DNA from: a virus
Reading direction: 5' to 3' (one strand)
Length of the DNA: 31,318 nucleotides
Virus record (IMG/VR): IMGVR_UViG_3300028837_001075
Location: 1 to 31,318 of that record
Shown: one piece after another, positions 8,028 to 22,169 of the stretch
How the letters are laid out: every line of letters starts with the position of its first letter
Position numbering within the stretch: the stretch's first letter is position 1
Translations under genes and position numbers: made by a program
Notes under the pieces: model-generated
The model's input: the letters and a program-made list of their open reading frames with translations, nothing else
Database searches by the model: none
Told to the model about the DNA's origin: nothing

Positions 8028-8038
8028 GAGGTATGGAA

Positions 8039-8464
8039 ATGAGCTACTGCGAACGTTTCACCGAAGTTCACTATCCGCTGGGGCGCATCGACCCGGTGGC
8101 TGACGGTACACTCGTCACGCCCTGGGTTAGCCTGAGCAACTATCATCGAGCCGTTGTCATCGTGTGGACTGGCAACCTGACAGGCACACTGGACTGCCAG
8201 CTCTGGCAGGCTCAGGACGCTGCGGGGACAGGTGCTCAGATCATAGTGGGGAAGGCCATCACCCAGCTCACGGCTGCGGACGATGGTGTGCTCGTTGCTA
8301 TCGAGCTTCAGACCGAGGAGTTAGACGTTGACAATGCATTCTACTGCATACAGGCCGTTACGGTCTCTGGTGGGCAGCGGGATACATACGGCGTTCTGAT
8401 TCTCGGCCTAGAGCCGCGCTGTGCTCCAACGCCGGTAGTCAACTGGGACGAGGTTGTACCGTAA
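8039..8464 (+). CDS. Possible capsid decoration protein
   Basis: 141 residues. ATG 8039 is preferred to ATG 8033 because AGGAGG (8026-8031) lies 7 bases before it but only 1 base before 8033. The sequence is beta-rich with alternating hydrophobics (HRAVVIVWTGNLTGTLDC, DGVLVAIELQTEELD, FYCIQAVTVSGGQRDTYGVL) and no helices or catalytic motifs of note. A small all-beta protein directly after the major capsid gene is most often a head decoration or stabilising protein. No family is recognised by sequence. As the last gene before the glycosylation cassette it is one candidate for the surface that becomes glycosylated; that is inference. Confidence 0.6.
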   Translation: MSYCERFTEVHYPLGRIDPVADGTLVTPWVSLSNYHRAVVIVWTGNLTGTLDCQLWQAQDAAGTGAQIIVGKAITQLTAADDGVLVAIELQTEELDVDNAFYCIQAVTVSGGQRDTYGVLILGLEPRCAPTPVVNWDEVVP

Positions 8465-8515: not shown

Positions 8516-9163
8516 ATGCCAGTCTGGGTGCAGCTACGACGTAAGAAGCGGCTGGATGTGGCCGGTTCACCGCGTACCTTCTATCCTGGTGACTGGGTAC
8601 AGGTTGGGCGACAAACGGGTCGGCGCTTCATCCTTGATGGTGATGCAATCGCACCAGACGAGCAGATCAAGTCACTCAATAGCACGGATGTAGGTGTGCT
8701 TGTGACTGGAGGCCCTAGTGACGCTGGCCGAGATGTTGGGGCAAAGCTCGGTGTGCCCATCGAGTTCAATACCCCTTCCTGCCGCTGGGCGAGAACATGC
8801 TGCTATGATGCACGTCTGACGCTAGTGCGCCCAGGGTTGATACCGGTAGGGTTTGAGCTACTGGAAAGATGGCAGGTTGCCGTCCCACTGTGGGATTACA
8901 AGGTCTTAGCCCAGGACGTAGGGACGGAAGACGAGCGAGAGCGAACACTGCAAGTGATTCGTGACTTGCGCGTGCCGCTGTACGATACCAGGCTGGTATT
9001 CCTGCGGGAATGTACCGAATCCCGCGCTCTAGTGGCACAATGGATGGAAGAACGAATGGATAGCACTGAAGATAGGCTGGCCTTTCTGCGGGCGTTGTAT
9101 CAGGTCAAGCCCTTGGTCTTAGCTCTGCCGTGTACCTGGACACTGGGGCCGCAGTATCAGTGA
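8516..9163 (+). CDS. Unknown protein at the head of the glycan cassette
   Basis: 215 residues from ATG 8516, with no strong ribosome site. The first ~45 residues have the pattern 'r-YxPGDWVxVGxxxARxxIxxGdA' (here FYPGDWVQVGRQTGRRFILDGDAI), a short motif that recurs in small phage structural proteins. The rest (GVLVTGGPSDAGRDVGAKLG, then LIPVGFELLERWQVAVPLWD and RDLRVPLYDTRLVFLRE) has alternating beta strands and helices and ends in a helical segment. No DxD or SAM motif is visible. It overlaps the first glycosyltransferase as GTGA and so is co-translated with it. It may be a virion protein serving as glycan acceptor, or an unusual sugar-transfer protein; I cannot decide. Confidence 0.6.
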   Translation: MPVWVQLRRKKRLDVAGSPRTFYPGDWVQVGRQTGRRFILDGDAIAPDEQIKSLNSTDVGVLVTGGPSDAGRDVGAKLGVPIEFNTPSCRWARTCCYDARLTLVRPGLIPVGFELLERWQVAVPLWDYKVLAQDVGTEDERERTLQVIRDLRVPLYDTRLVFLRECTESRALVAQWMEERMDSTEDRLAFLRALYQVKPLVLALPCTWTLGPQYQ

Positions 9164-9765
9164 ACGGTGCCATTTATGTGGCAGTAGGTCCGAATGCAGT
9201 CAATCAGGCACAGGAGAGCATCACGGTACTCAAACAACAGAATTCTGGTTTGCCAGTGGCGGTCATTGGTGACTTGGTACGCAAGGGCGTGACCAACATT
9301 CCTTTTGTCCAGCCTGGCCCTGGTGCTCGGTGGGCAAAACTGCATGTGGACCTGCTCTCGCCTTGGTCTAGCTTCTGCTACCTAGACGCGGATACGAGAC
9401 CGCACGCAGGGCTTGGGGTTGGATTTCGTATTCTAGCTGATGGTTGGGATATGATCATCACAGCTAGTGCCTCCCAAGCTGGGATGCTTCTCTGGCACAT
9501 CGGGGAAGGAGATAGACTAGCTACATTCGCTGCGCTTGGACACGAAGACCCCCTACAGCTTCAGGCAGGGGTTTTCTGGGCGCGGAAATCTCGGAAGTTG
9601 CATCGGTTCTTTGAGGCTTGGCGCGAGGAATGGAAACGATATTCAGATCAGGATCAGGGGGCTTTCTTGCGGGCACTAGCGAGAGTGCCCCTTAAGCTAT
9701 GGCTATTCGGTAGACCGTGGAATGGTGGCGAGGCGATAGAGCACTTGTACGGACAAGCGCGATGA
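9160..9765 (+). CDS. GT-A-fold glycosyltransferase
   Basis: 201 residues starting at GTG 9160, which overlaps the upstream stop as GTGA; an in-frame GTG at 9130 is less likely. It opens with GAIYVAVGPNAVNQAQESI, the first Rossmann-like strand and helix of GT-A enzymes, and has YLDADTRP near residue 74, the DxD-type metal/nucleotide-sugar site, followed by ADGWDMIIT and LQLQAGVFWAR. Its whole layout matches the C-terminal half of the next gene, so the two look like paralogues. It should transfer a sugar from an NDP donor; donor and acceptor cannot be read from sequence. Confidence 0.8.
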   Translation: MNGAIYVAVGPNAVNQAQESITVLKQQNSGLPVAVIGDLVRKGVTNIPFVQPGPGARWAKLHVDLLSPWSSFCYLDADTRPHAGLGVGFRILADGWDMIITASASQAGMLLWHIGEGDRLATFAALGHEDPLQLQAGVFWARKSRKLHRFFEAWREEWKRYSDQDQGAFLRALARVPLKLWLFGRPWNGGEAIEHLYGQAR

Positions 9766-11390
9766 ATGTCAATATAGTCTGCACCAACAACGGCCCCGAT
9801 CACGTACTGTGGCGGCTCGCCCAAACGCTGGCCGACCAGACTGGTTGGACTCTCTCGCGCACGCCTAATGGTGGAGCGGACTTCAACTATTGGATACTCT
9901 ACATCAGCTTCGCTGAGAAGTGGTCTGATTGGCGTCAGACCCCGGTAGGGGCCTGGTTCTCGCACTTCGAGAGAGGTACGCCATTCAAGGAGTACTGGTG
10001 GGAATTGGCGGCAAGTGTCCTCGGCTTGCGAATCACATGTGCCCCTCAATACTTGTCTCTACTTGACAGCTTCGGGCGGTCTGCTATTGCACGACCTCCC
10101 ATCGACCCCATCTTCCAACCCAAAGGGAAGAAAGCAAAGCATGACACTCCGCTTGTTGGGGTGAGCGGATACGTAGACAAGAGCAAGCGCAAAGGGGAGA
10201 AGCTGGTCGCGCAACTGTCCGGGTCAGACCTGGATATCGAATTGACAGCAACCGGGCGCGGCTGGCCTTGTCGCACCAATGAGATGAGATTTGCAGAGTT
10301 GCCTCAGTTCTACAATGATATTGATGTGCTCTTGTGCCCTTCACTCCAAGAAGGCATACCATTGCCACCACTGGAGGCCCTAGCGTGTGGTACGCCTGTC
10401 GTCATTCCTGAGGCAGTGGGGTTGCTTGATGATCTACCAGACATTCCCGGTATCTATCGTTACCCGGCCGGCAACTATGGCGAGATGGAAAGTGCAGTGC
10501 GGGCAGCGGTCAAGAAATCCTACAAGCGCGATGCTTTGATTGAGGCTGTGGCGGAGTACACACCAGAGAACTGGGCAGCGGATCACGAAAACGCCATTGC
10601 GCTTGCACTGACGATGGGCACGGCACCAAGGCTGGAGAGCGACCGACATGGATTGAAAGGGGTGTACTACGTAGCCTATGGCGATCCGGCTCGTCAATGT
10701 GCCCAGGCGTCTATATCCTCGTTCAAGGAACACATGCCCGATATACCAGTCATGCTCGCGGCAGAAGAGGGCGGTCTTGGCGAAGACTTGCTCGCTGAAT
10801 GCGAAGATAGGGACATTGGCGGGCGATATGCCAAGACCCTCATCTATGATCTGGCACCGAAGGAATGGCAATACATCATGTACCTTGATGCCGATACCGA
10901 AGTCATCGCCAACATCAACTTCCTCTACGAAGCGTTGTCTGATGGATGGGACATGGTGATCTGCAAGAATCCGGCCAAGTTCCACATAGCGAGTCGCATG
11001 AGGCGCAGTGATAATAAGGATGAGTGCGCGATCACTTTTGACTTCCTCGGTACTGAGGAGTTGATCCAGCTCAATGGTGGGGTGTTCGCCTTTCAGCGAA
11101 ACGAACGAACACGCGCCTTCTTCCATTCCTGGCACGAAGAGTGGCAGAAGTTCTGCAAGCGAGATCAGGCTGCCCTACTTCGAGCCTTGTGGAAGCACCC
11201 GATCAAGTTCTTGGTCCTAGATAACTATCCGTGGAACCTGATCACTCGTTATGATGACAGAACTGCCGATGCTTGCATTCTGCATCGGCCCATGACTGCA
11301 CGTAGATGGCGAGGCACGGTCAGCCAGAGATCGGATAGTACAGAGGCATGGGCAACGGTCAAGAAATGGGAGCAGGCCCAGGGGAAATGA
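9762..11390 (+). CDS. Bifunctional glycosyltransferase: GT-B (GT4-like) + GT-A
   Basis: 542 residues from ATG 9762 (ATGA overlap with the previous stop). Residues ~1-290 are GT-B of GT4 type: a short N-terminal Rossmann half, then the C-terminal donor half with DIDVLLCPSLQEGIPLPPLE and ALACGTPVVIPEAVGLLDD around 186-225, the classic 'ExGxxxxxxEAxACGxPV' signature. Residues ~300-542 are a GT-A domain: GVYYVAYGDPARQCAQASI, YIMYLDADTEVI near residue 372 (DxD), SDGWDMVICKN, and IQLNGGVFAFQ, closely similar in layout to the preceding gene. Two transferases in one chain suggest consecutive addition of two sugars. No membrane span or signal peptide is seen, so it acts in the cytoplasm. Confidence 0.85.
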   Translation: MNVNIVCTNNGPDHVLWRLAQTLADQTGWTLSRTPNGGADFNYWILYISFAEKWSDWRQTPVGAWFSHFERGTPFKEYWWELAASVLGLRITCAPQYLSLLDSFGRSAIARPPIDPIFQPKGKKAKHDTPLVGVSGYVDKSKRKGEKLVAQLSGSDLDIELTATGRGWPCRTNEMRFAELPQFYNDIDVLLCPSLQEGIPLPPLEALACGTPVVIPEAVGLLDDLPDIPGIYRYPAGNYGEMESAVRAAVKKSYKRDALIEAVAEYTPENWAADHENAIALALTMGTAPRLESDRHGLKGVYYVAYGDPARQCAQASISSFKEHMPDIPVMLAAEEGGLGEDLLAECEDRDIGGRYAKTLIYDLAPKEWQYIMYLDADTEVIANINFLYEALSDGWDMVICKNPAKFHIASRMRRSDNKDECAITFDFLGTEELIQLNGGVFAFQRNERTRAFFHSWHEEWQKFCKRDQAALLRALWKHPIKFLVLDNYPWNLITRYDDRTADACILHRPMTARRWRGTVSQRSDSTEAWATVKKWEQAQGK

Positions 11391-11605
11391 AGGTCAAGAA
11401 ACGGCCAAAGCCAGTAGATATGATCATAGACCGAGGTGTGCTATACCTAGTTCAAGGGGGTCGGCGCATAATAGTGCATCCTGCGATAGCCAAACACAAA
11501 CCATATCGAGATGCCTATCGCAAGTTGTTCGGCAAGCTGGGCTACTTCCCCTTGGATGGCAAGTACCACTTCACCGGCAAGAAGATGCGGAGAGTCAAGT
11601 CGTGA
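11387..11605 (+). CDS. Small basic unknown protein
   Basis: 72 residues; ATG 11387 overlaps the preceding stop as ATGA. Very rich in Lys and Arg (MKVKKRPKPVDMIIDRG; C-terminal GKYHFTGKKMRRVKS), with short beta-like strands such as GVLYLVQGGRRIIVHP. No known family. The overlap with both neighbouring genes argues it is real and co-translated within the glycan cassette; its basic character could suit nucleic-acid or phosphate-group contact, which is only a guess. Confidence 0.55.
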   Translation: MKVKKRPKPVDMIIDRGVLYLVQGGRRIIVHPAIAKHKPYRDAYRKLFGKLGYFPLDGKYHFTGKKMRRVKS

Positions 11606-12405
11606 AGCTCGCAATCATCTGCCCTATCGGCCCGCTTGATAAGTACGGCTATGGGCATGTGGCTGCTGATTGCATTGCGAGCATGGTAGACTTCGCTGAT
11701 CATGTTTTCCTGATGCAGTCTGCACGCGACCAAAAAGGGAATGGGTTGATTCCCAAGGATGGGCATATAACCCTCATATCGGATGAACGGACGTGGTTTG
11801 CCGGTGGTTTCGATGCTCAGAAGGTGATGGACAACGCAGACCTTGGGGCTGACTTGGCTGATGGCTACGACGTGGCGATGTGTATGATGCTTAACTGGTA
11901 TGTACCGCCGCAGAATACGTTGCGCCAAGCCTGCCAACGAGTCGCGGGATCGAAGGCGGGCTGGGGCTGGCTCTATCGACGTGACCAGCTAGGGATGCAA
12001 ATGTTCCACGCCAATACCAGGCTGCCCTGGATCGTTGCCTTGAGACCGAACAGGTGGCACTTCGCCATTGATTCTGTCAAGCGCGATAGCCTGGCGATTC
12101 CTTGGGAGCGGGGCGATTGGCCTGAGCATAATCAAATGAGCGTGGTTGATCTCCAACTGGAGATGACGCGAGAAGAGATGCAAGAGCGTTTGGAGTTCGT
12201 GCGCTTTCATAAGGACTTAATGCCCAAGAGGCCGGATCATTTCGAGTGGGACTATTGGAGACGATACTACGTAGCGAAGTACAGTAAGAAAACGAAAGCA
12301 TCTGACAAGCCGATTGGGGCTGGTATGGTCGTGGCCACCAACCCTAGCTTCGTCAGTCGAGAGATACTAGCATCTCTCGACCGGCATGAGGTAGACGAGC
12401 TATAA
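11602..12405 (+). CDS. Putative glycosyltransferase-like protein
   Basis: 267 residues from GTG 11602, overlapping the upstream stop as GTGA. It begins with MKLAIICPIGPLDKYGYGHVAAD, a hydrophobic strand and helix like the entry to a nucleotide-sugar fold, and has a second strand with GYDVAMCMMLNWYVPP. Later it has an aromatic and Arg-rich region (WGWLYRRDQLGMQMF, RLPWIVALRPNRWHFAID) and an acidic WEWDYWRRYYV-like helix. There is no clear DxD, so assignment to a sugar transferase relies on fold pattern and position between a bifunctional transferase and an NDP-sugar enzyme. It may be an accessory cassette protein. Confidence 0.5.
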   Translation: MKLAIICPIGPLDKYGYGHVAADCIASMVDFADHVFLMQSARDQKGNGLIPKDGHITLISDERTWFAGGFDAQKVMDNADLGADLADGYDVAMCMMLNWYVPPQNTLRQACQRVAGSKAGWGWLYRRDQLGMQMFHANTRLPWIVALRPNRWHFAIDSVKRDSLAIPWERGDWPEHNQMSVVDLQLEMTREEMQERLEFVRFHKDLMPKRPDHFEWDYWRRYYVAKYSKKTKASDKPIGAGMVVATNPSFVSREILASLDRHEVDEL

Positions 12406-14132
12406 TGAATGACCGGGAGCAAATCATAATCATCGGTGCGTCTGGTCATGCCAGAGTCGCCATCGACATCGTACAACGTGAAGGTAAGTACGACATCGCC
12501 GGCCTCTTGAATCATACAGCGAATGAACAGGTGTTGGGTTATGATGTCTTGGGTCGAGAGGCTGATCTACCACTGGTGGCGAAGGACTATGCCTTGAAGG
12601 GTGCGCTGGTAGCGATTGGTGACAATGCCGTGCGGGCTGAGGTAGTCGCTCGCGTACAGGCACTATGCCCTGATCTTCCCTTCATCATCGCGGTACATCC
12701 CAGCGCAACCGTCGCGTCGAATGTGCTGCTCCGTGAGGGCACAATCGTGATGGCCGGTGCAGTGGTGAATCCGGGTTGTACTATAGACCGTTTCTGCATT
12801 CTGAATACCGGCTCATCTCTTGACCACGATTCAACGATGGCTGAGTTTGCCAGCCTTGCGCCGAGAGTAGCCACAGGCGGGCACTGTTCAATCGGCGCTT
12901 ATTCTGCCATAGGCATTGGAAGCACACTCATCCAAGGCATCGAGATCGGCGTGCATACCATCATAGGGGCTGGCTCAACAGTTCTTGAAGATGTGGGATC
13001 GTTCAAGGTGGCCTACGGAACGCCCGCGCGGGTAGTCCGGCAGAGGAAGATGGGAGATACGTACTTGCTGGGTCGTCCCCTGCGCCAGATAGATGAAGGG
13101 CTTTGCCGCTCCTTCATCTCTGGCAAGACGGTACTAGTGACTGGTGCGGCCGGGTCCATCGGTAGCGAATTGTGCCAGCAATTGGCGCGCTATGGAGCAG
13201 GCAAAGTGCTGGCACTCGACCGAGAAGAAACCGGTCTCTATAACTTGGGCCTAGATTTGCAGGATACTGGATGCCCATTTGCTCTCATCATTGGGGATGT
13301 GTCTGATAGAGAACGAATGAAGACCGTCTGGAGCTTGCATCAACCAGAGATAGTCTATCACTGTGCTGCCTACAAGCACGTTCCCATGATGGAAGACTGC
13401 CCCAGCGAGGCAGTCAAGGTCAACGTTCAGGGATTGCATATCATAACTGCCCTAGCTCGGAAGTGGGGAACGAAGCACTTCGTCTTCATCTCTACTGATA
13501 AGGCAGTCTGCCCGACTGGTATTATGGGTGCCACAAAGCGCCTTGGGGAACTTCTTGTCTTGACACAGCAGAAAGTGACTCGGAACAAGACGCGGTTCTC
13601 GGTCGTGCGATTCGGCAACATACTCGGCAGTCGTGGTAGCGTAGTACCGGCCTTCGCCCGCGCAATCGCAAGGGGTGGTCCAGTCCTAGTAACTGATCCA
13701 CAAGTCAAGCGTTTCTTCATGAGCGTCAGCGAGGCTGTCAGCCTAGTGATCCAATCGGGGCATTACGGGATCGGTGGCGATCTCTTCACCTTTGATATGG
13801 GCGAACTGATGAACATCACGGAACTGGCAAGCAAGATGATCGGGCAGCAAGACATAGAGATCAGTTATATCGGGCTAAGGCCAGGCGAGAAACTAGCAGA
13901 AAGGCTATTCTGTCCGCCATACGAATCTCTCGAATCCACGCCTTGGCCTACGATCATGCGTGTACGCAACATAGATGAGTCGTTTCGCACAGCACCAGAC
14001 ATTGACTACAAGCAGTTGATCAGACTGGCACGCCAAGGCAGGGATGATGAAGTGAGAGACTGGCTCATGGCGGTGGTGCAATTCTCCTGTCTTGAGGATT
14101 GCATATATCGGGATGCGGAGACGCTAGAATGA
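12405..14132 (+). CDS. PglD-like acyltransferase fused to NDP-sugar 4,6-dehydratase (PglF/WbpM type)
   Basis: 575 residues, TAATG overlap with the upstream gene. Residues ~1-225 match the NeuD/PglD sugar acyltransferases: IIIIGASGHARVAIDIV, an N-terminal UDP-sugar-binding fold, then a left-handed beta-helix of hexapeptide repeats with LDHDSTMAEFASLAP, where PglD has its catalytic His. Residues ~240-575 are an extended SDR dehydratase: TGAAGSIGSEL near 245 for NAD(P), FISTDKAVCPTGIMGATKR near 361-379, and LRPGEKLAERLF. The 'MGATK' motif has Met in place of the usual Tyr, as in WbpM/PglF-type enzymes with an SMK triad, favouring UDP-4-keto-6-deoxy-GlcNAc without C5 inversion. The membrane domains of PglF and WbpM are absent, so the enzyme is soluble. 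With the aminotransferase at 19359 it would supply a bacillosamine-type sugar nucleotide. Confidence 0.88.
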   Translation: MNDREQIIIIGASGHARVAIDIVQREGKYDIAGLLNHTANEQVLGYDVLGREADLPLVAKDYALKGALVAIGDNAVRAEVVARVQALCPDLPFIIAVHPSATVASNVLLREGTIVMAGAVVNPGCTIDRFCILNTGSSLDHDSTMAEFASLAPRVATGGHCSIGAYSAIGIGSTLIQGIEIGVHTIIGAGSTVLEDVGSFKVAYGTPARVVRQRKMGDTYLLGRPLRQIDEGLCRSFISGKTVLVTGAAGSIGSELCQQLARYGAGKVLALDREETGLYNLGLDLQDTGCPFALIIGDVSDRERMKTVWSLHQPEIVYHCAAYKHVPMMEDCPSEAVKVNVQGLHIITALARKWGTKHFVFISTDKAVCPTGIMGATKRLGELLVLTQQKVTRNKTRFSVVRFGNILGSRGSVVPAFARAIARGGPVLVTDPQVKRFFMSVSEAVSLVIQSGHYGIGGDLFTFDMGELMNITELASKMIGQQDIEISYIGLRPGEKLAERLFCPPYESLESTPWPTIMRVRNIDESFRTAPDIDYKQLIRLARQGRDDEVRDWLMAVVQFSCLEDCIYRDAETLE

Positions 14133-15100
14133 GGCCCCTCAAAGTTGCCCTAGTACATCGTGGACACTGGTATCGGTATGAACGCATCGACGGCCAGTTT
14201 GCCTATCCGGTACCTGAGTTCACTTGGACACATCACGAGGTGGACAAAGCATTCACAGTGAACTTGGATGAGCTAGGTGTAGATGCGGTCTGGTGGGACG
14301 AGGCCAAGCACAAAGATGATAAGTGCCGCTTTCTGCCGGTGAAAGGCAGGGATCGCCATACGCCTTTGATCTACTACTGTCTGTATCCTACGTTGACCAT
14401 GCACCACTTTCGTTCGCGTACAATACGAGCCAAGCGGTTTGCAGATGTGGTGTGCCTAGAGCACGATGATCTCGAACGCTGGCACGGCTTGAATTGTGGT
14501 ATCTATCGACTGGCCTATTCGGTGAACGAGAATCTTTACAAGCCCGCAGCTAAGACAGTGGATGTGGGGTTCTATTGTTTCCACGGCTATAGCCCGGAAC
14601 GGCCGGCGATGGCCCAATGGCTCGCGGACTTCTGTCAACGCAAGGGCTACAGCTTCTTGACGAACGAAGGACATGAAGGACGAGACTACCCGCAATGGTT
14701 GGCGAAGACGAAAGTGGTGATACACCTTAACCGCACACGTCGCACACGACCGCCACGCATCTTCGACGTGGCTGCGAGCGGGGGCGTGCTCTTATCTCAT
14801 AGAATGCCGGAAGTGAGCGGGGAACGCTGGGAACCAGGAGTCCACTACATACCCTTCGATAACCCGCCCCCGCCGGATGAGATGCAATCAAGGGATCATA
14901 CAGACCATCGCCCATTCAGTGATACAGATTGTGGAGAACTTATCGCTGGCTTGGAGTGGTTGTTGGATGAGGGGAACTGGGAAACAGTAGCAGCGCAGGC
15001 CAGGGCCTACGTCTTGAAGCACCATACCTGGAGGGTACGCGCCAAGGAATTGCATCGGATTTTGTTGGGGGCATTCCCACACTTAGGGCAAAATCAATGA
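14129..15100 (+). CDS. CgeB-like GT-B glycosyltransferase
   Basis: 323 residues from ATG 14129 (ATGA overlap); an in-frame ATG at 14099 lies within the upstream gene and is less likely. The N-terminal half has strands and helices with a VNLDELGVDAVWWDE segment. The C-terminal half has the CgeB/Glycos_transf_1_2 pattern: VVIHLNRTRRTRPPRIFDVA, ASGGVLLSH (about 217-225), EPGVHYIPFDNP, then ELIAGLEWLLDE and ARAYVLKHHTWRVRAKELH, the end-of-domain HTW..R signature. This family are retaining GT-B transferases found in spore-coat, capsule and phage glycosylation loci. No membrane span. Confidence 0.78.
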   Translation: MRPLKVALVHRGHWYRYERIDGQFAYPVPEFTWTHHEVDKAFTVNLDELGVDAVWWDEAKHKDDKCRFLPVKGRDRHTPLIYYCLYPTLTMHHFRSRTIRAKRFADVVCLEHDDLERWHGLNCGIYRLAYSVNENLYKPAAKTVDVGFYCFHGYSPERPAMAQWLADFCQRKGYSFLTNEGHEGRDYPQWLAKTKVVIHLNRTRRTRPPRIFDVAASGGVLLSHRMPEVSGERWEPGVHYIPFDNPPPPDEMQSRDHTDHRPFSDTDCGELIAGLEWLLDEGNWETVAAQARAYVLKHHTWRVRAKELHRILLGAFPHLGQNQ

Positions 15101-15798
15101 TGGTATTCGAGCACCTAGCACAACTGGAACGTGAGACTCTGAAGGCTGACGGGGATTTGCAGCGTTACTACCTGTGGCCACGAACACCCATCGGTAACCT
15201 GCAAGCCGAGATGTGGCAGCGCGTTGGGGTGAGCGATCTTGTCACAGATGATCCGAGTAGCCGAACATACAAAACACTCGCGCTCTTAGAAGGGTTGGTT
15301 TACAACCGCCTGATTGCAGATGACTTCACCTTTCTTGATATCTGCTGCGGGGATGCGGTGATTCTACGTGCGATTGCAGAAGCGTATCCAGAGGCACATG
15401 TGTATGGCGTTGACCTGAACGCGAGAAAGTTGTCGGCTCATACGGAAGCGATGGCGGCTGGCGTGCATCTGTGGATGACGCCAATTCAATCACTGTTTGC
15501 TGTAGACTTGCCTCAGCCAATAGACGTGGCGATGATGCTCAATACGTACTGGGGCTGGGACAAAGCTGATTTGCTGAATGGAGAGCGTGATCTGCCAGTG
15601 CAGGCCGATGATTGGTTCCGCCGCAACGCACGCTTCGTCATTCTGACGGTGACAGAAAAGCAAATCTTCGCCCTGCAAAACAAGGGTTTCTGGATAACGC
15701 GGATTGGCCGAGGCGAAAGCGGGAGCACGATGATCGTCATGTTCCCTTGTGAGTCAACGGAAACGGAGGGGCTATGGAGCGCAGCGCGGAAACGGTGA
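15097..15798 (+). CDS. SAM-dependent methyltransferase
   Basis: 233 residues; ATG 15097 overlaps the previous stop. SAM-binding motif I is FLDICCGDAVIL (residues ~79-90), followed by VYGVDLN at the end of strand beta-2 (acidic residue that binds the ribose). An SLFAVDLPQPIDVAMML segment forms the expected beta-4. The N-terminal extension is helical. It is a class I methyltransferase. Among sugar-transfer genes it likely methylates a sugar hydroxyl or amine, but the substrate is not readable. It overlaps the next gene by 25 bases. Confidence 0.75.
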   Translation: MMVFEHLAQLERETLKADGDLQRYYLWPRTPIGNLQAEMWQRVGVSDLVTDDPSSRTYKTLALLEGLVYNRLIADDFTFLDICCGDAVILRAIAEAYPEAHVYGVDLNARKLSAHTEAMAAGVHLWMTPIQSLFAVDLPQPIDVAMMLNTYWGWDKADLLNGERDLPVQADDWFRRNARFVILTVTEKQIFALQNKGFWITRIGRGESGSTMIVMFPCESTETEGLWSAARKR

Positions 15799-16382
15799 TC
15801 GTGATGCCCACGCTCGATTTGCAGGCCGCTGCTAAGACGATGCAGCAGGCGCGAGAGACAGCGGGTATACCAACGGCTGCGGTGCTGATCAGTGACCAGG
15901 AGCGGCGTGGCGCGGTCTTCGTCAACAATGTGGGCTTCGAGGCAGCGTTGGCATGGGGAGCACGATACATCGTCTATCTGAATGATGATTGCCGCTGTGA
16001 GCAGCAGGGATGGCTTCGACGGCTGATTGAGGTATTGGCCTCTGATCCTTCCTTTGGTGTCGCAGCACCATCAGGGATGTGTCGAGGTGGCCCACAGATG
16101 ATGGGCAAGCCCGGTGAACCGCCAGGCTATGAGATCGTGGCGCAACCATTGGCCTGGTTCTGCGCGGTATGCAAACGCGAAGTCTTTGAAACAGTAGGGT
16201 TATTCGACTCCACCCTGATCCACTACTGCGATGAGTCGGACTTCGAGATGCGAGCGCGCGAGGAGGGATGGAAGTCAGTCTGGGTGCGGGATGTCTATGT
16301 GAATCATGCTGTGGGCATACCAATCGCCGAATGGTGGGAGGCCGACAAGAGACTCTACAACCAGAGGTGGGCCAAGCGATGA
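15774..16382 (+). CDS. GT2-family glycosyltransferase
   Basis: 202 residues; ATG 15774 has GGAGG (15765-15769) 4 bases upstream. It shows YIVYLNDDCRCEQQGWL near residue 69, the 'NDD' metal-binding site of GT2 rhamnosyltransferase-type enzymes, then FGVAAPSGMCRG, a hydrophobic acceptor loop, and the late GLFDSTLIHYCDESDFEMRA with REEGWKSVWVRDVYVNH, the typical 'ExDxxxR...G' acceptor and closing strand. The N-terminus is shorter than a full GT2 domain of about 230-250 residues, but all core motifs are there. It should be cytoplasmic. Confidence 0.82.
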   Translation: MERSAETVIVMPTLDLQAAAKTMQQARETAGIPTAAVLISDQERRGAVFVNNVGFEAALAWGARYIVYLNDDCRCEQQGWLRRLIEVLASDPSFGVAAPSGMCRGGPQMMGKPGEPPGYEIVAQPLAWFCAVCKREVFETVGLFDSTLIHYCDESDFEMRAREEGWKSVWVRDVYVNHAVGIPIAEWWEADKRLYNQRWAKR

Positions 16383-17206
16383 GCAAGAGTCGAAACGAAC
16401 TCTCGCAGATGACGCAGGCGGAACTGAAGGACTGGTACTGGAAGGACTTGGCGTTTCAGGAGGCCAAGTTTGGCGAAAAGCTAGGTGCCCGTCGCTTTCC
16501 AGTCGAGCCTACGCCACTAGCGTACTATACCGAACAGATAGAGACAGGGCAACCATTCACTTTCCAGCGTTATGGAGATGGTGACTGGAATTGCATTCAG
16601 CGTCGTCATGGCTTCGGTGATATTGACGCGCTTCGTCCTGGGCTACGCACAAGCATCGTGAATAGCCTAACACATGCCTATAGAGATGAGCGATATATGA
16701 TGTCCATCTACGTGCAGAACTTTGCGATAGATGGGCTTGACTGGCTAGAAGAACATGTACCCAATATGCGCTGGCATGACGAAGCTGTGTTTGGCTACGC
16801 GAGCCGCGATGGACAACTATACCCGTTCATCAAGGCCATACGCGAGTTGGATGTTCCTATCGTGATCGTTGGACCACCTATGCTGCGCGCGTTCAACGCA
16901 TTCAATGTAGCCCGTTTTGTAGAGGTCTCGCCAGTGCAGACCTCGGCGGCAGATACGTATTCTTGGAATGATTGGCAGCGCGTAGTGCGAGAATGTCTGG
17001 AGGTATCGGGGCCTGCTTTCTTCACCTTCTCGATGGGATTAGCGACGAAGGCCGTAATATGGGAGCTGTTCGGCAAGATCGGCCAACAGAGCTGGCTGTT
17101 GGATGTGGGCAGCTTGTGGGACGTATATGTAGGTGATCGCAGCCGCAAGTACCACTTCGTGATAGATGAGGCTGTTATCAAAGCCAACTTGGGAGATACA
17201 CAATAA
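16379..17206 (+). CDS. GT-D-like (DUF1792) glycosyltransferase candidate
   Basis: 275 residues from ATG 16379 (ATGA overlap). The key feature is FTFQRYGDGDWNCI near residues 62-75, the 'xxRYGDGE' motif that opens GT-D fold enzymes (DUF1792, first described for a streptococcal serine-rich-protein glucosyltransferase). The middle has PIVIVGPPMLRAFNAF, and the C-terminal end has AFFTFSMGLATKAVIW and SWLLDVGSLWDVYVG, matching the family's 'G......l.......IDiG...D' close. An N-terminal helical extension precedes the domain. Known members glucosylate protein-linked glycans, which would suit virion glycosylation; the donor here is unknown. Confidence 0.65.
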   Translation: MSKSRNELSQMTQAELKDWYWKDLAFQEAKFGEKLGARRFPVEPTPLAYYTEQIETGQPFTFQRYGDGDWNCIQRRHGFGDIDALRPGLRTSIVNSLTHAYRDERYMMSIYVQNFAIDGLDWLEEHVPNMRWHDEAVFGYASRDGQLYPFIKAIRELDVPIVIVGPPMLRAFNAFNVARFVEVSPVQTSAADTYSWNDWQRVVRECLEVSGPAFFTFSMGLATKAVIWELFGKIGQQSWLLDVGSLWDVYVGDRSRKYHFVIDEAVIKANLGDTQ

Positions 17207-17230
17207 CATCAAGGCATTCTCGGTACTGAT

Positions 17231-17776
17231 ATGATTGAACGTGATGAAGCCGTAGCACGTGGCCTGGGAATCATCGGGCGTGGCAAGCTACTGGTTGAAG
17301 AATTGGAGTGGCTCTACGACCTGGCCAAGCGTGCCCCAGAGGGATCAGCGGTAGAAGTGGGACCGCTCTGTGGTCGTAGTCTAGTGGCATGGGCATACGC
17401 CAGAGAAGGGCGCGGTACCATCTATGCCGTTGATAACGTGATAAGGGATTGCTTGGCAAAGAACATCGCTGCTCTTGCATTCCCCATCACGCTCATTTGC
17501 AAGGAATCGTGGGAAGCAACTACCGAAATCCCTGATTCGCTCGCGTTCTGTTTCATTGACGCTGATCATGGAATTGACGGGTTTCCGAAAGACATCCTGC
17601 CGTGGGCTGCTAAGATGATACCTGGCGGAATCATTGTCTACCACGATTATGATGTCTGGAAACCCACAGTCGTTGTGAAGCGATATGTCGATGCCTTGCA
17701 GTCATTGGTGGGATGGAAAGACTTGGGAGCTGTACGAAGCGCGAAGGCATTCCAGAGGCCATTATCAGATGGATGA
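17231..17776 (+). CDS. SAM-dependent methyltransferase (Methyltransf_24-like)
   Basis: 181 residues from ATG 17231, after a 24-base gap without a clear ribosome site. Motif I is AVEVGPLCGRSLVAWA (residues ~40-55), the second strand ends in IYAVDN, and FCFIDADHGIDGFPKDI (near 107-123) followed by GGIIVYHDYD gives the acidic metal or substrate pocket of Methyltransf_24/TylF-like O-methyltransferases. This fold commonly methylates sugar hydroxyls in antibiotic and polysaccharide pathways. It resembles the methyltransferase at 18685 in motif layout. Confidence 0.8.
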   Translation: MIERDEAVARGLGIIGRGKLLVEELEWLYDLAKRAPEGSAVEVGPLCGRSLVAWAYAREGRGTIYAVDNVIRDCLAKNIAALAFPITLICKESWEATTEIPDSLAFCFIDADHGIDGFPKDILPWAAKMIPGGIIVYHDYDVWKPTVVVKRYVDALQSLVGWKDLGAVRSAKAFQRPLSDG

Positions 17777-17788
17777 TAGCGAGGAAGC

Positions 17789-18688
17789 ATGAAAATAGCA
17801 GTCTGCACAGCAGCCTCCGGTAAGAAGCACCAGAGCTGCCTGCCATTGTTCGCTCTCTCCTTGCGCGTGAGCTACCCGGAGTATGCACTGCGCTTGTTCT
17901 CGGTTGGTGAACTAGACGAACCTGTGAAGGCTGCGCTTGAGATGGTCGGTGGTGCGAACGTTGTGCTAGATGAGCGCGAATTCGTGGGCTATTGCGACCA
18001 GCCACGCATCGGGGCAGTTGCGCGTTTTCTGGTTTTCACTCCAGCGCGGTGGGAGCGGTTCTTCAGTGAGTTCGACGCCGTCTATATCACGGACTGCGAT
18101 ATGTTCATCGCACGCGAAGAGCCACCACTGCACGTTCAGCATACAACGCATTGTGAGGCCATAGGCTTGCCCTATTCTGACCTGATACGAAGTTGCCACT
18201 GCCGCTGCATGACCGGCCTGCTGTTCTGTCTGCCTGAGTTCCAGAAACAAGTAGCTGAGACGTGTGAACGGTTTGACGCGATCATACGCACCGAAGGTTT
18301 ATACGGTCTTGGCACTCCGGGTCACATTCAAGATGAATGGATGTTGCGCGAGATGGTGGAGCAGGCAGGTATCGGTTTGCCGCCACAGTGGGAACAAACC
18401 AAAGACCCGTCAAAAGGCGTGGCGATGGGTGAGCCAGTGAACTGCAAGCAGGCTTGGTTTCGCCCTTGGCATGGCATCAATCTAGGCTGGACCAAACAGG
18501 TGGGCGGGCTGGCCTATGCCAAGCAGACCATACAGGAGCAGCCATCAATCGCAGCGGCGATGAGGCACCTGATGTTGCTATGGAAGCATCCCGACTTTCA
18601 GGTTGCCTATGATGTATTGACGCTATCTAACAAAACAGCATTAGACATCTGGCAGGAAGCATACGATCAAGTGCGGAGCGAGCAATGA
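17789..18688 (+). CDS. GT-A-like glycosyltransferase
   Basis: 299 residues; ATG 17789 is preceded closely by GAGGAAG. It opens with MKIAVCTAASGKKHQSCLPLF, a beta strand and helix typical of GT-A enzymes, and has VYITDCDMFIAREEP near residue 98, a DxD motif (Asp-Cys-Asp) at the usual place. GYCDQPRIGAVARFLVF precedes it, and HIQDEWMLREMV and a C-terminal WHGINLGWTKQ follow, resembling the GT8-like 'HxxG' metal-binding end. Cytoplasmic, with no signal or membrane segment. Donor and acceptor unknown. Confidence 0.7.
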   Translation: MKIAVCTAASGKKHQSCLPLFALSLRVSYPEYALRLFSVGELDEPVKAALEMVGGANVVLDEREFVGYCDQPRIGAVARFLVFTPARWERFFSEFDAVYITDCDMFIAREEPPLHVQHTTHCEAIGLPYSDLIRSCHCRCMTGLLFCLPEFQKQVAETCERFDAIIRTEGLYGLGTPGHIQDEWMLREMVEQAGIGLPPQWEQTKDPSKGVAMGEPVNCKQAWFRPWHGINLGWTKQVGGLAYAKQTIQEQPSIAAAMRHLMLLWKHPDFQVAYDVLTLSNKTALDIWQEAYDQVRSEQ

Positions 18689-19362
18689 AAGTACCATTTC
18701 TTGAATCACCGACCCACCCCGACTATCGGCACAATTGCTCAGGTGTAGCTCTGTGGAATCTATGCTTGATGCTGAAACCAACCTATGTAGTAGAGCTCGG
18801 CACCTGGCAAGGTACGTCAGCGATGCTAGTCGCTAAATACCTGGAAAAGCATCGGGATGATCAGGGTGCAATTGTCACGGCAGACGTGGTGACACACCTT
18901 TTCGTAGAAGAGCACCCATTGGTTGAAAAGGTGCAGGTCTACCCGCACACAGAACATGGGTTGGAACAGGCACCCTGGGCAACCGAGCGATTCCGGCGAT
19001 CAGATTGGAAACGCGGACTAGATGATTCGGTCACACTCAACACGGAATTGATACTGAAGGCATTGCGAGCACGCGGTGGTCAGCTATTCGATTTGGCCTA
19101 CGTGGACGGCGATCACAGCGAGGAAGGCTTGCTACGTGATCTGGAGATTGTCAAGCAGGTCACGGCACCACCACACTATGCCCTGCTGGACGACGTATAC
19201 CGGAACTACCCAGCGGCGAAGTTATATCAAGAACAGTTGCGCGACTTATACAACCATTACGACTTCGATGATGGAGGCTGGGAAGCCTGGGAGACCTGGC
19301 TTGAACCGCGCCCAGCGGTATGTACGATGCCCCGCATGGCGCTGGTTTGGAGTGACGAATGA
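18685..19362 (+). CDS. SAM-dependent methyltransferase (Methyltransf_24/CmcI-like)
   Basis: 225 residues with ATGA overlap at both ends. YVVELGTWQGTSAMLVAKYL (residues ~34-53) is SAM motif I; VTADVV is the second-strand acidic; FDLAYVDGDHSEEGLLRDLE (about 135-154) and HYALLDDVY give the two acidic sites for metal and substrate, as in cephalosporin-hydroxylase/CmcI-like and Methyltransf_24 enzymes. Likely O-methylation of a sugar or aglycone. It sits immediately before the aminotransferase gene. Confidence 0.78.
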   Translation: MKVPFLESPTHPDYRHNCSGVALWNLCLMLKPTYVVELGTWQGTSAMLVAKYLEKHRDDQGAIVTADVVTHLFVEEHPLVEKVQVYPHTEHGLEQAPWATERFRRSDWKRGLDDSVTLNTELILKALRARGGQLFDLAYVDGDHSEEGLLRDLEIVKQVTAPPHYALLDDVYRNYPAAKLYQEQLRDLYNHYDFDDGGWEAWETWLEPRPAVCTMPRMALVWSDE

Positions 19363-20480
19363 TACCAATCTTCTCTAACACTCTAGGTGACGAAGAACTG
19401 CAAGCGGTGGAGCGCGTATTCGCCAGCCGATGGCTTGGTCGAGGCCAAGAATGTGCCGGTTTCGAGAGTGAGTTCGCGGCATACCAGAAGACAGATGCGA
19501 GTCAAGTCTTGCTATGCAACTGTTGTACTTCGGCCATACACATTGCCCTGCGTGCGCTTGGGGTTGGGCCGGGGGCTGAGGTGATCGTACCGACAGCGCA
19601 CTTTGTCTCTGCGGGCACCCTACCGATGGAGCTTGGTGCTCAAGTGGTATTGGCCGACGTAGACGCACGCACGCTCAATGTCAAGCCCGCAGAGGTTGAG
19701 CGGTTATTGACGAAGCGCACGCGGGCGATCCTCTTGTTGCATTATGGCGGACATCCGTGTGATGTTGACGCGATTCGTGAGATCGTAGATGGTCGCGCGG
19801 CCATTATCGAAGACGCTGCCAATGCTGTAGCGTCCACCTATCACGGCCTCCCTTGCGGCACGTTAGCTGACGCAGGGGTGTGGTCATTCGATGCAATGAA
19901 GATATTGGTGATGGGCGATGGTGGAGCACTGTGGATGCGGGACGATGTTGCTCTGAAAGCGGCTCGTAGTATGCGCTACCTGGGCCTGAAGCGAGGCACG
20001 GCTAGTGGAACTGATGCAGCACACGCCGGTTCACCGCGCTGGTGGGAGTTCACCGTCGAGACGCCATCGGGTCGGTTCATCTCTAATGATATACTGGCTG
20101 CGATTGGGCGCGTGCAACTGAAGAAGCTCGACCAGTTCATCTCCCGGCGGCACGAGATATGGGACACATATCAGCGTGAATTGGCAAGTTGTCCACTTGC
20201 GCTACCGCCTGAACCGCTGGCTGATTGCACCACATCGTACTATATGTATTGGGTCCAGACCTCCCGACGCGATGATCTAGCGGCATTCCTACGTGAGCAG
20301 GGCATATTCTACACGACCTTCCGCTACTGGCCTCTGCATCGTGCTATACCAGGGTTCGATGGAGAGTTCCCTGGCGCGGATGAAGCCGCAGATACCACGC
20401 TATGCCTGCCGCTGCATCAGAACCTAACGGATGCGGACGTGGAAGAGATCATTGGCTGCGTCAAGGACTTCTTCAGATGA
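19359..20480 (+). CDS. DegT/DnrJ/EryC1/StrS aminotransferase (PglE-like)
   Basis: 373 residues, full length for the family, ATGA start. It is a PLP-dependent sugar aminotransferase: LCNCCTSAIHIALRALGVG near 51-70, the EVIVPTAHFVSA segment, LLHYGGHPCDVDAI, EDAANAVAS with the PLP-ring Asp152, and VWSFDAMKILVMGDGGALWM, where Lys181 is the expected Schiff-base lysine. The late SNDILAAIGRVQLKKLD and the substrate region FRYWPLHRAIPG are also typical. It should convert a 4-keto-6-deoxy NDP-sugar to the 4-amino sugar using glutamate. Paired with the dehydratase-acyltransferase fusion at 12405, this completes the three steps of UDP-N,N'-diacetylbacillosamine synthesis. The exact keto position (C3 or C4) cannot be proved by sequence. 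Confidence 0.93.
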   Translation: MIPIFSNTLGDEELQAVERVFASRWLGRGQECAGFESEFAAYQKTDASQVLLCNCCTSAIHIALRALGVGPGAEVIVPTAHFVSAGTLPMELGAQVVLADVDARTLNVKPAEVERLLTKRTRAILLLHYGGHPCDVDAIREIVDGRAAIIEDAANAVASTYHGLPCGTLADAGVWSFDAMKILVMGDGGALWMRDDVALKAARSMRYLGLKRGTASGTDAAHAGSPRWWEFTVETPSGRFISNDILAAIGRVQLKKLDQFISRRHEIWDTYQRELASCPLALPPEPLADCTTSYYMYWVQTSRRDDLAAFLREQGIFYTTFRYWPLHRAIPGFDGEFPGADEAADTTLCLPLHQNLTDADVEEIIGCVKDFFR

Positions 20481-21475
20481 GATTGGATATTGGCAGCGGG
20501 CCGAAGAGACGCGCTGGCTACTTCACCGTTGATCTATACTGCCCAGAGGCAGACTTTCAAGTTCCGGCACACGAGTTGCCGCTGGAAGACGGGACAGTGG
20601 ACGAGGTTTTCACTTCGCACATGATTGAACATCTATTGCCGCAGGAGTTCGCACTAGCATTACGGGAATGGTATCGAGTTCTCAAGCTAGGTGGGAAGTT
20701 GATAATCTGCTGCCCGAACTTCGAGCGGTGGATGCTAGACTGGTGTTCAGGTAATGATGAGTATCGCTGGGGCACGGCATTGAACGGCATCTTGGGCAAT
20801 CAAGAGAGAGGTCCAGGTCATTGGGTTCATAATGCCTTCAACCCGCAGCGACTAGGCACGCTGGTAGCACAAGCGGGGTTTACGGTACTGAAAACAGAAG
20901 CAGTCCCGACGCGAGCGAGTGACCATCCACCGATTGATTCTATTGGTTGGGAAGTGTGGCCAGTACCAGAGCCGAATGATGATCCACGTAGGGTGGCGCG
21001 ACGGTACAAGACGCTTTGCCACCGATGGTTTCCTGACACTGATGTGTGGCTTTGGTTGGACGGAGCCGTGCAACTTCAAGTGCCACCGGAAACGGTTGTT
21101 GAGGCTTTCCTAGACGGTGCCGATATTGGGGCCTTTCGCCATCCGAGCCGGGATTGCGCCTATACCGAAGCTATCAGATGTATCCAGAAGGGCAAGGATA
21201 CCCAAGCTATTCTCAAGGGACAGATGGCAGCAATGCGTCACACCCAGTTTCCATCTCATTGGGGATTGGTAGAGACTGGCTTGATAGCTAGGCGCAACAC
21301 AGCGGCGATCAAGGCGCTCAATGAGCGGTGGTGGCTGGAGATTGAGAGGTATAGCGTGCGAGATCAAATTAGCCTGCCGTTCGTCTGTTGGCAACGCGGG
21401 ATTGAATTGCAGGCGATGGCCGGCAGTTTGGTAGACCATCCGTGGATTGACTACCGCTCGCACGCGGGGAGGTAA
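20477..21475 (+). CDS. Methyltransferase fused to TOD1/MUCI70 (DUF616) glycosyltransferase-like domain
   Basis: 332 residues from ATG 20477 (ATGA overlap); an in-frame ATG at 20402 is inside the aminotransferase gene. Residues ~1-150 are a compact Methyltransf_11 domain: MRLDIGSGPKRRAGYFTVDL, LPLEDGTVDEVFTSHMIEHL and REWYRVLKLGGKLIICCPN. Residues ~185-332 read as the DUF616/TOD1-MUCI70 domain: PDTDVWLWLDGAVQLQVPPE, FRHPSRDCAYTEAIRCI, the K-D..Q segment, FPSHWGLVETGLIARRN, and WWLEIERYSVRDQISLPFV. That family was named from plant proteins, including one involved in seed mucilage, and is also found in bacterial sugar loci. This is the last gene of the glycan cassette. Confidence 0.82.
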   Translation: MRLDIGSGPKRRAGYFTVDLYCPEADFQVPAHELPLEDGTVDEVFTSHMIEHLLPQEFALALREWYRVLKLGGKLIICCPNFERWMLDWCSGNDEYRWGTALNGILGNQERGPGHWVHNAFNPQRLGTLVAQAGFTVLKTEAVPTRASDHPPIDSIGWEVWPVPEPNDDPRRVARRYKTLCHRWFPDTDVWLWLDGAVQLQVPPETVVEAFLDGADIGAFRHPSRDCAYTEAIRCIQKGKDTQAILKGQMAAMRHTQFPSHWGLVETGLIARRNTAAIKALNERWWLEIERYSVRDQISLPFVCWQRGIELQAMAGSLVDHPWIDYRSHAGR

Positions 21476-21476
21476 C

Positions 21477-22169
21477 ATGGCAGACTACGCAACGCTGGTG
21501 GAACTGAAGGCCGAGATCAACATGACGGGGGCTGGTGATGATGCCACGCTCACGCGGCTACTGACATCTGGGAGCAGGGCGATAGACCGCCACTGTAATC
21601 GCTTGGATGGGTTCATAGCTCTTGAGGATGCCGAAGCCCGATACTATCCTGGTACTGGATTCAGTTGGCTGCGGATTGACGAATGCACGGAAGTCACGTT
21701 GGTCGAAGTCAAGGACTCTCCAAGCGACACGACATATACGGCCTGGACTAGTCCCTCTGCCGATTACGCAGGAGATGGTGATTGGTTGTTGGCGAAGGGC
21801 GCACCGGGCAATCCGGTATTCAGCCGCACGCCCTACGACTTGCTCATCTGCGATCCGAATGGCACTTATGCCGCGTTCCCTTCTGGACGGTACACGATGA
21901 GCCGGGCTAACACCCCGCGCAACACAGCTATCAAAGTACCAGTGGCGAAGATCACAGCGAAGTGGGGCTTCGCCACGACTGTACCAGATCAGATCAAAAC
22001 CGCTTGTATCATGCAGGCTGCGAGATGGTACAAGAGACTGCAAAGCTCGATGGCCGATACCCTGGCGAGTGGAGAACTGGGGCAACTACTCTACACCAAG
22101 AAGCTAGACCCAGACGTGGCGTTCATCCTACAGGAGGGGCGATTCGTGCGCCCTGCTATCGGGATATGA
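21477..22169 (+). CDS. Head-tail connector/adaptor (gp6-like)
   Basis: 230 residues; ATG 21477 has GGGGAGG just upstream and follows the previous stop (21473-21475). The N-terminus ADYATLVELKAEI and TLTRLLTSGSRAIDRHCNR is the helix pair of HK97 gp6/SPP1 gp15-type connectors that bind below the portal. A beta-rich insertion in the middle (YTAWTSPSADYAGDGDWLL, PSGRYTM) is followed by the closing WGFATTVPDQIKTACIMQAARWYKR, the usual final helix. This begins the neck genes after the 13-kb glycan cassette. It is larger than the minimal gp6 of about 110 residues because of the insertion. Confidence 0.82.
   Translation: MADYATLVELKAEINMTGAGDDATLTRLLTSGSRAIDRHCNRLDGFIALEDAEARYYPGTGFSWLRIDECTEVTLVEVKDSPSDTTYTAWTSPSADYAGDGDWLLAKGAPGNPVFSRTPYDLLICDPNGTYAAFPSGRYTMSRANTPRNTAIKVPVAKITAKWGFATTVPDQIKTACIMQAARWYKRLQSSMADTLASGELGQLLYTKKLDPDVAFILQEGRFVRPAIGI

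Follow-up and report, generated by a model that had tools for sequence, protein, structure and literature searches.

Does a tailed phage make a bacillosamine-type sugar of its own and, if so, what would the sugar be used for? This question is raised by a 31,318-base IMG/VR virus record, IMGVR_UViG_3300028837_001075 (the window, i.e. the whole stretch of DNA analysed here), in which an earlier note had recognised two genes of a bacterial type of diamino-sugar pathway: one encoding a PglD-like acyltransferase joined to a 4,6-dehydratase (positions 12405-14132) and one encoding a DegT-type aminotransferase (19359-20480). On re-checking the sequence, the coordinates, strand, fusion and motifs proposed for both genes were all found to be correct; these and all other window genes given below between 5817 and 22169 lie on the plus strand. 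The window runs from terminase and portal genes through a protease-capsid gene to head-tail adaptor, tape measure and tail genes, and since such genes surround the region it belongs to a phage. The fusion and the aminotransferase sit in ~13 kb of co-directional, mostly overlapping glycosyltransferase and methyltransferase genes, bounded by the capsid gene with its small downstream neighbour and by the adaptor gene; about a dozen sugar-related genes thus stand between the capsid gene and the head-tail connector gene. The same metagenome yielded two more contigs, L002 and L024, that match the region at ~100% identity, and L002 also contains the whole fusion gene, which is therefore not a chimera of a single assembly. 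Our best explanation, read from sequence, is that this island would direct a diamino-sugar route feeding a virion glycan, a proposal that we hold to have about an even chance of being right as a whole.

The fused protein is 575 amino acids long. Its residues 243-520 match Polysacc_synt_2 (312 bits) and carry the catalytic residues S363, T364, D365 and K366 (STDK), together with M374 and K378 in an MGATK motif. In the account given in PMC10117803, a D396N change in Campylobacter jejuni PglF is tied to loss of activity. The dehydratase domain (residues ~218-560) scores 223 bits against C. jejuni PglF (5bju) versus 141 against PseB, 126 against the FnlA-type 4j2o and 124 against CapE, and in a tree of 32 sequences it stands with 100/98 support beside WbpM-like proteins of Chloroflexota, within a larger group that includes PglF, the PseB and CapE/FnlA sequences forming other clades. 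The clustering check suggested in the earlier note thus places it with the PglF/WbpM type, and identities as PseB, CapE/FnlA or RmlB are ruled out by scores and tree. The Met of MGATK had been taken as the mark of WbpM/PglF enzymes; it does rule out PseB, but CapE (3vvb) and 4j2o share it, so that the assignment is made here because of the whole-sequence evidence and not because of this single residue. The N-terminal membrane domain of full-length PglF/WbpM enzymes is absent from the fusion (highest 19-residue hydrophobic mean 1.5), in which the acetyltransferase occupies the place of the WbpM-type membrane part, and the filing as PglF/WbpM is therefore limited to the catalytic domain. The crystallised PglF is also a shortened form. 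By its sequence, the domain would catalyse a retaining 4,6-dehydration of uridine diphosphate N-acetylglucosamine (UDP-GlcNAc).

In the first half of the protein (~1-213), residues 7-209 match TIGR03570 (NeuD/PglB/VioB) at 183.1 bits, above the cut-off of 160.8, and a PglD_N domain was also matched, whilst a DHD at 140-142 in the left-handed-helix domain puts H141 at the catalytic place, all in agreement with the PglD-like acyltransferase that had been called there. Compared with solved proteins, this domain scores 108 bits against PerB, 82 against a Neisseria pilin glycosylation protein, 75 against VioB and 55 against PglD. An identity as PglD itself, i.e. as a UDP-bacillosamine-specific enzyme, was rejected, its closest relative being PerB. 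An AlphaFold model of the fusion, used for its outline alone given a mean pLDDT (predicted local distance difference test) of 69, begins with a small Rossmann domain and a left-handed helix, from which a poorly ordered linker (204-221) leads to a second Rossmann domain, that of the short-chain dehydrogenase/reductase. Elsewhere in viral contigs the fusion was found in the identical contig L002 only, phage records gave no match covering 80% of it, and in 494 Chloroflexota/Omnitrophota genomes none of the matches listed ran across both domains.

Because dehydration and acetylation sit on one chain, an aminotransferase is to be expected between the two steps, and one is found in the same co-directional run. 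The encoded protein (373 amino acids) has a DegT match of 278 bits and, as predicted, the pyridoxal phosphate (PLP) lysine Lys181, here within SFDAMK. Its closest solved relative over its full length is TlmJ (5uid), with which it has an SFDAMKI..GDGG motif in common, at 339 bits versus 153 for ArnB, 149 for PerA, 77 for PglE and 73 for PseC, so that its description as a PglE does not hold. TlmJ comes from antibiotic biosynthesis; a search of a partial literature collection found no paper on its substrate. In a tree that did not include PglE, the window's enzyme groups with phage proteins of contigs L025-L028 and with proteins of Omnitrophota, Chloroflexota and others, TlmJ falling in a neighbouring group. 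As to a possible preference for 3-keto sugars, the top solved matches after TlmJ are the 4-keto enzymes ArnB and PerA, with DesV and QdtB following so closely that bit scores do not decide. The neighbours of the closest bacterial aminotransferases are glycosyltransferases, methyltransferases and one sulfatase only.

From these assignments we infer the substrates, the order of steps, the product and its target as follows. On an island inserted between h8033, a probable head gene, and the adaptor gene, the dehydratase domain would convert host UDP-GlcNAc to UDP-2-acetamido-2,6-dideoxy-4-hexulose, the TlmJ-type aminotransferase would aminate C4 with glutamate and PLP, and the PglD-like domain of the fusion would acetylate the new amine, giving UDP-2,4-diacetamido-2,4,6-trideoxyhexose, either bacillosamine or its galacto epimer. 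The glycosyltransferases and methyltransferases of the island would then build the sugar into a glycan, most likely onto the virion during head assembly. Of the three activities that the earlier note had placed in two genes, the dehydratase and 4-amino-sugar N-acetyltransferase families are thus retained and the PglE-type aminotransferase gives way to a TlmJ-type one, and the transferases said to use the product are present in number around both genes. The claim of independence from the host was too strong, as UDP-GlcNAc, glutamate, acetyl-CoA and NAD+ would be supplied by the cell. The bacillosamine-type product survives in part: a 2,4-diacetamido-2,4,6-trideoxyhexose is likely and bacillosamine itself plausible, with either the gluco or the galacto configuration at C4 and perhaps a nucleotide other than UDP at the amination step.

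Several observations weigh against this route. The aminotransferase is of the TlmJ and not the PglE type, and among its bacterial kin an RmlB neighbour is commoner than a PglF-type one; the acetyltransferase domain prefers PerB, a GDP-perosamine N-acetyltransferase, to PglD by 108 versus 55 bits; 5.2 kb of sequence separates the fusion from the aminotransferase gene; and we identified no acceptor protein.

The alternative that survives best changes the product alone. C4-axial amination would yield the galacto epimer, FucNAc4NAc, instead of bacillosamine; DegT enzymes with either stereochemical outcome exist and the aminotransferase lies outside the PglE group, whilst no sequence rule applied here separates the two outcomes, and we regard the epimer as rather improbable.

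A second alternative, which we consider unlikely, divides the genes between two sugars. The aminotransferase would act on deoxythymidine diphosphate (dTDP)-4-keto-6-deoxyglucose from host RmlA/RmlB and the PerB/VioB-like domain would acetylate its product, the PglF-type domain separately feeding a sugar of the N-acetylquinovosamine (QuiNAc)/N-acetylfucosamine (FucNAc) type. This would suit the kinship of the acetyltransferase domain to PerB and also the surroundings of the bacterial relatives of the aminotransferase: among 80 loci obtained in a genome-collection scan with this protein, an RmlB-type dehydratase lies within 6 kb in 22, one of WbpM/PglF type in 1, and none of the sought types in 57. 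The TlmJ-type group may thus often use dTDP sugars, but RmlB is common in polysaccharide loci and the 22 of 80 have no background rate beside them, so that the count is a caution rather than proof. Also in favour of two sugars, in the phage relatives L025 (8692-11119) and L026 (2-2363) an aminotransferase 61% identical to that of the window adjoins a sugar formyltransferase, with no dehydratase in the available stretch, which is only 4.5 kb for L026. Against a division between two sugars stand the fusion of the acetyltransferase to a UDP-GlcNAc-type dehydratase, the failure to recognise any reductase for QuiNAc/FucNAc in the island, and a sister island, L150 (3907-6598), that directly pairs the two activities: its PglF-type dehydratase gene (237 bits, MGATK) overlaps that of a PerA-type aminotransferase, and a gene for a hexapeptide transferase overlaps on the other side.

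In the tree the L150 dehydratase branches apart from that of the window, elsewhere within the PglF/WbpM group, and such a trio was therefore gathered more than once. L136 (17190-19093) has an ArnB-like aminotransferase adjoining another formyltransferase. With a PglD-PglF fusion and TlmJ-type aminotransferase in the window, a dehydratase and PerA-type enzyme in L150 and aminotransferase-formyltransferase pairs in the others, the islands of one clade have therefore gathered different makers of 4-amino sugars, with acetyl or formyl finishing. This pattern favours a 4-amino-4,6-dideoxy sugar as what the islands have in common and tells against a chance neighbourhood in the window.

The island itself has a fixed place in the genome. 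In one uncultivated phage clade, some 90 loci share the order capsid, h8033, glycosyltransferase genes, adaptor; the viral loci reached by searches with the capsid protein and GT9717 number well over 100, with some contigs contributing more than one, overlapping stretch. The left border in the window is a prohead protease fused to an HK97-type major capsid protein (5817-8027; Peptidase_S78, Phage_capsid) and the right border a head-tail adaptor (21447-22169; phrog_442). The core genes h8516 (8516-9163), h9130 (9130-9765) and GT9717 (9717-11390) are present in 103, 92 and 75, respectively, of the 114 loci with the clade's capsid gene, many of which are cut by contig ends. Where both borders are present the capsid-to-adaptor interval measures ~5 to 13.4 kb, the longest being that of the window. 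Core glycosyltransferases are conserved while the sugar-making genes are swapped among islands, and neither GT9717 nor h8516 has a match in 50,697 phage records. In a distant relative, a Chloroflexota prophage (L264:16848-19731), capsid, h8033 and adaptor genes are contiguous and there is no island. As to the host range of the wider group, this prophage offers no more than a hint.

Virion glycosylation appears to be the best explanation of the island's purpose, the virion being named as the glycan target because of gene position and synteny. The same enzymes might instead make a glycan for the host surface (changing a receptor or excluding other phages) or for phage DNA, in keeping with glycosyltransferases of other phages that do both (reviewed in PMC12619734) and with the missing acceptor, but throughout the clade the island occupies a position behind the capsid gene, inside the block of head genes, and we recognised neither a lipid-linked transferase nor a flippase in the cassette, so we judge this improbable. 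Beyond this we offer a wider picture, tentatively and at somewhat less than even chance: the clade, large and uncultivated, would coat its capsid with complex glycans from an exchangeable island, and related phages would exchange acetyl for formyl as the N-acyl group on a 4-amino-4,6-dideoxy sugar, perhaps in an arms race over surface recognition; the fusion would be a soluble enzyme for two steps that our searches did not find in cells. Separately, the incomplete open reading frame (ORF) at 3-443 has many Thr-Pro repeats (TPTPKPTDTPLPTSTPTATPSPTPT) ahead of a probable membrane segment and is a possible O-glycan acceptor.

Virus-made bacillosamine is already known, giant viruses of amoebae being the precedent. 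In Moumouvirus australiensis, Ma467, Ma465 and Ma466 are the dehydratase, aminotransferase and acetyltransferase for UDP-D-N,N'-diacetylbacillosamine (UDP-D-diNAcBac), and diNAcBac is found on the virion fibrils (PMC10117803). There, as in the window, the three steps are virus-encoded within a glycosyltransferase-rich cluster; Moumouvirus is, however, a eukaryotic giant virus with three separate genes, whereas the window comes from a tailed phage with a fusion, a TlmJ-type aminotransferase and a predicted product and target. The C. jejuni PglF/PglE/PglD system provides, in PglF, the nearest solved structure to the dehydratase, and all three of its activities are predicted in the window; the window's dehydratase differs in having no membrane anchor and a fused acetyltransferase, and the aminotransferase is not PglE-like. 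We know of no diamino-sugar synthesis in the virion glycosylation of mycobacteriophages. According to the account in PMC12619734, their capsids and tail tubes are glycosylated (Freeman et al., 2023), and the virion glycan proposed for the window would be similar. For tailed phages we found no report of a bacillosamine pathway in the open literature, as far as our partial coverage of it reaches. If the route holds, tailed phages, like giant viruses, would themselves produce rare bacterial diamino sugars to put on their particles, and close relatives would exchange sugar chemistry; phage virion glycosylation would become testable as a system of surface variation, and a compact soluble dehydratase-acetyltransferase would be at hand for making UDP-diamino sugars.

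A second group of phages comes nearer to the bacterial pathway than the window does. In the contigs L003-L023 (uncultivated, 6.5 to 140 kb, with a T4-type terminase in 10 of the 12 tested), the layouts read have a PglF-type dehydratase, a PglD-like acetyltransferase and an aminotransferase close together, some with one gene between. In L021, where the block lies at 9959-14284, the aminotransferase has C. jejuni PglE as its best solved match (353 bits) and the acetyltransferase scores above the NeuD/PglB cut-off. The same three activities are thus phage-borne in both, but in this other virus group they are unfused, include a PglE-type aminotransferase and, unlike those of the window, are set among genes for ribonucleotide reductase (RNR), PolB, Fpg and 3-deoxy-D-arabino-heptulosonate 7-phosphate (DAHP) synthase. 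Nothing near this block was found in isolate phage records, and its presence in a T4-type group suggests that the trait is more widespread among uncultivated phages than the isolates indicate.

The remaining genes of the region are as follows. The gene h8033 (8033-8464) encodes a small beta-sandwich protein, probably a structural or decoration protein of the head, that is conserved downstream of the capsid gene both in the clade and in the Chloroflexota prophage that lacks the island; its AlphaFold model (pLDDT 94) is beta-rich, with viral look-alikes that are mostly unnamed phage proteins and, in the PDB, weak jelly rolls. GT9717, found in 55 viral loci, is a two-domain glycosyltransferase by Pfam (GT4-like plus a GT-A-like domain with DXD), against whose C-terminal part the relatives of h9130 score. 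The latter is glycosyltransferase-like with a YLDADT (DXD) motif, and h8516 is possibly so too, its C-terminal FLRALYxxKP resembling LLRALxxxPVK of h9130. Upstream of the fusion, h11602 (11602-12405) has no Pfam match and has homologues in the sister islands L124, L136, L142 and L150. Downstream follow a Glyco_trans_1_2 glycosyltransferase recurrent in sister islands (14099-15100), an S-adenosylmethionine-dependent methyltransferase with a weak Pfam match (15097-15798), a GT2-like glycosyltransferase by Pfam whose relatives adjoin the aminotransferase in L025, L026 and L027 (15774-16382), and a gene with no Pfam match whose RYGDGD motif we read as possibly GT-D-like (16268-17206). Two Methyltransf_24 genes, the first a common island accessory (17231-17776 and 18685-19362), flank a probable glycosyltransferase called from our reading of its YITDCDMF motif, with no Pfam match (17789-18688). 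Beyond the aminotransferase, a profile search identified a methyltransferase fused to a TOD1/MUCI70-type glycosyltransferase domain (20402-21475).

Two further genes of the window are joined where relatives have them apart. The prohead protease and capsid protein form a single ORF of 736 residues, which is two ORFs in the relatives checked (L025, L038, L039 and L040). The methyltransferase and glycosyltransferase domains at 20402-21475 likewise form one ORF, as against two overlapping ORFs at L024:646-1868 from the same metagenome, and a frameshift or strain variant of this gene therefore exists.

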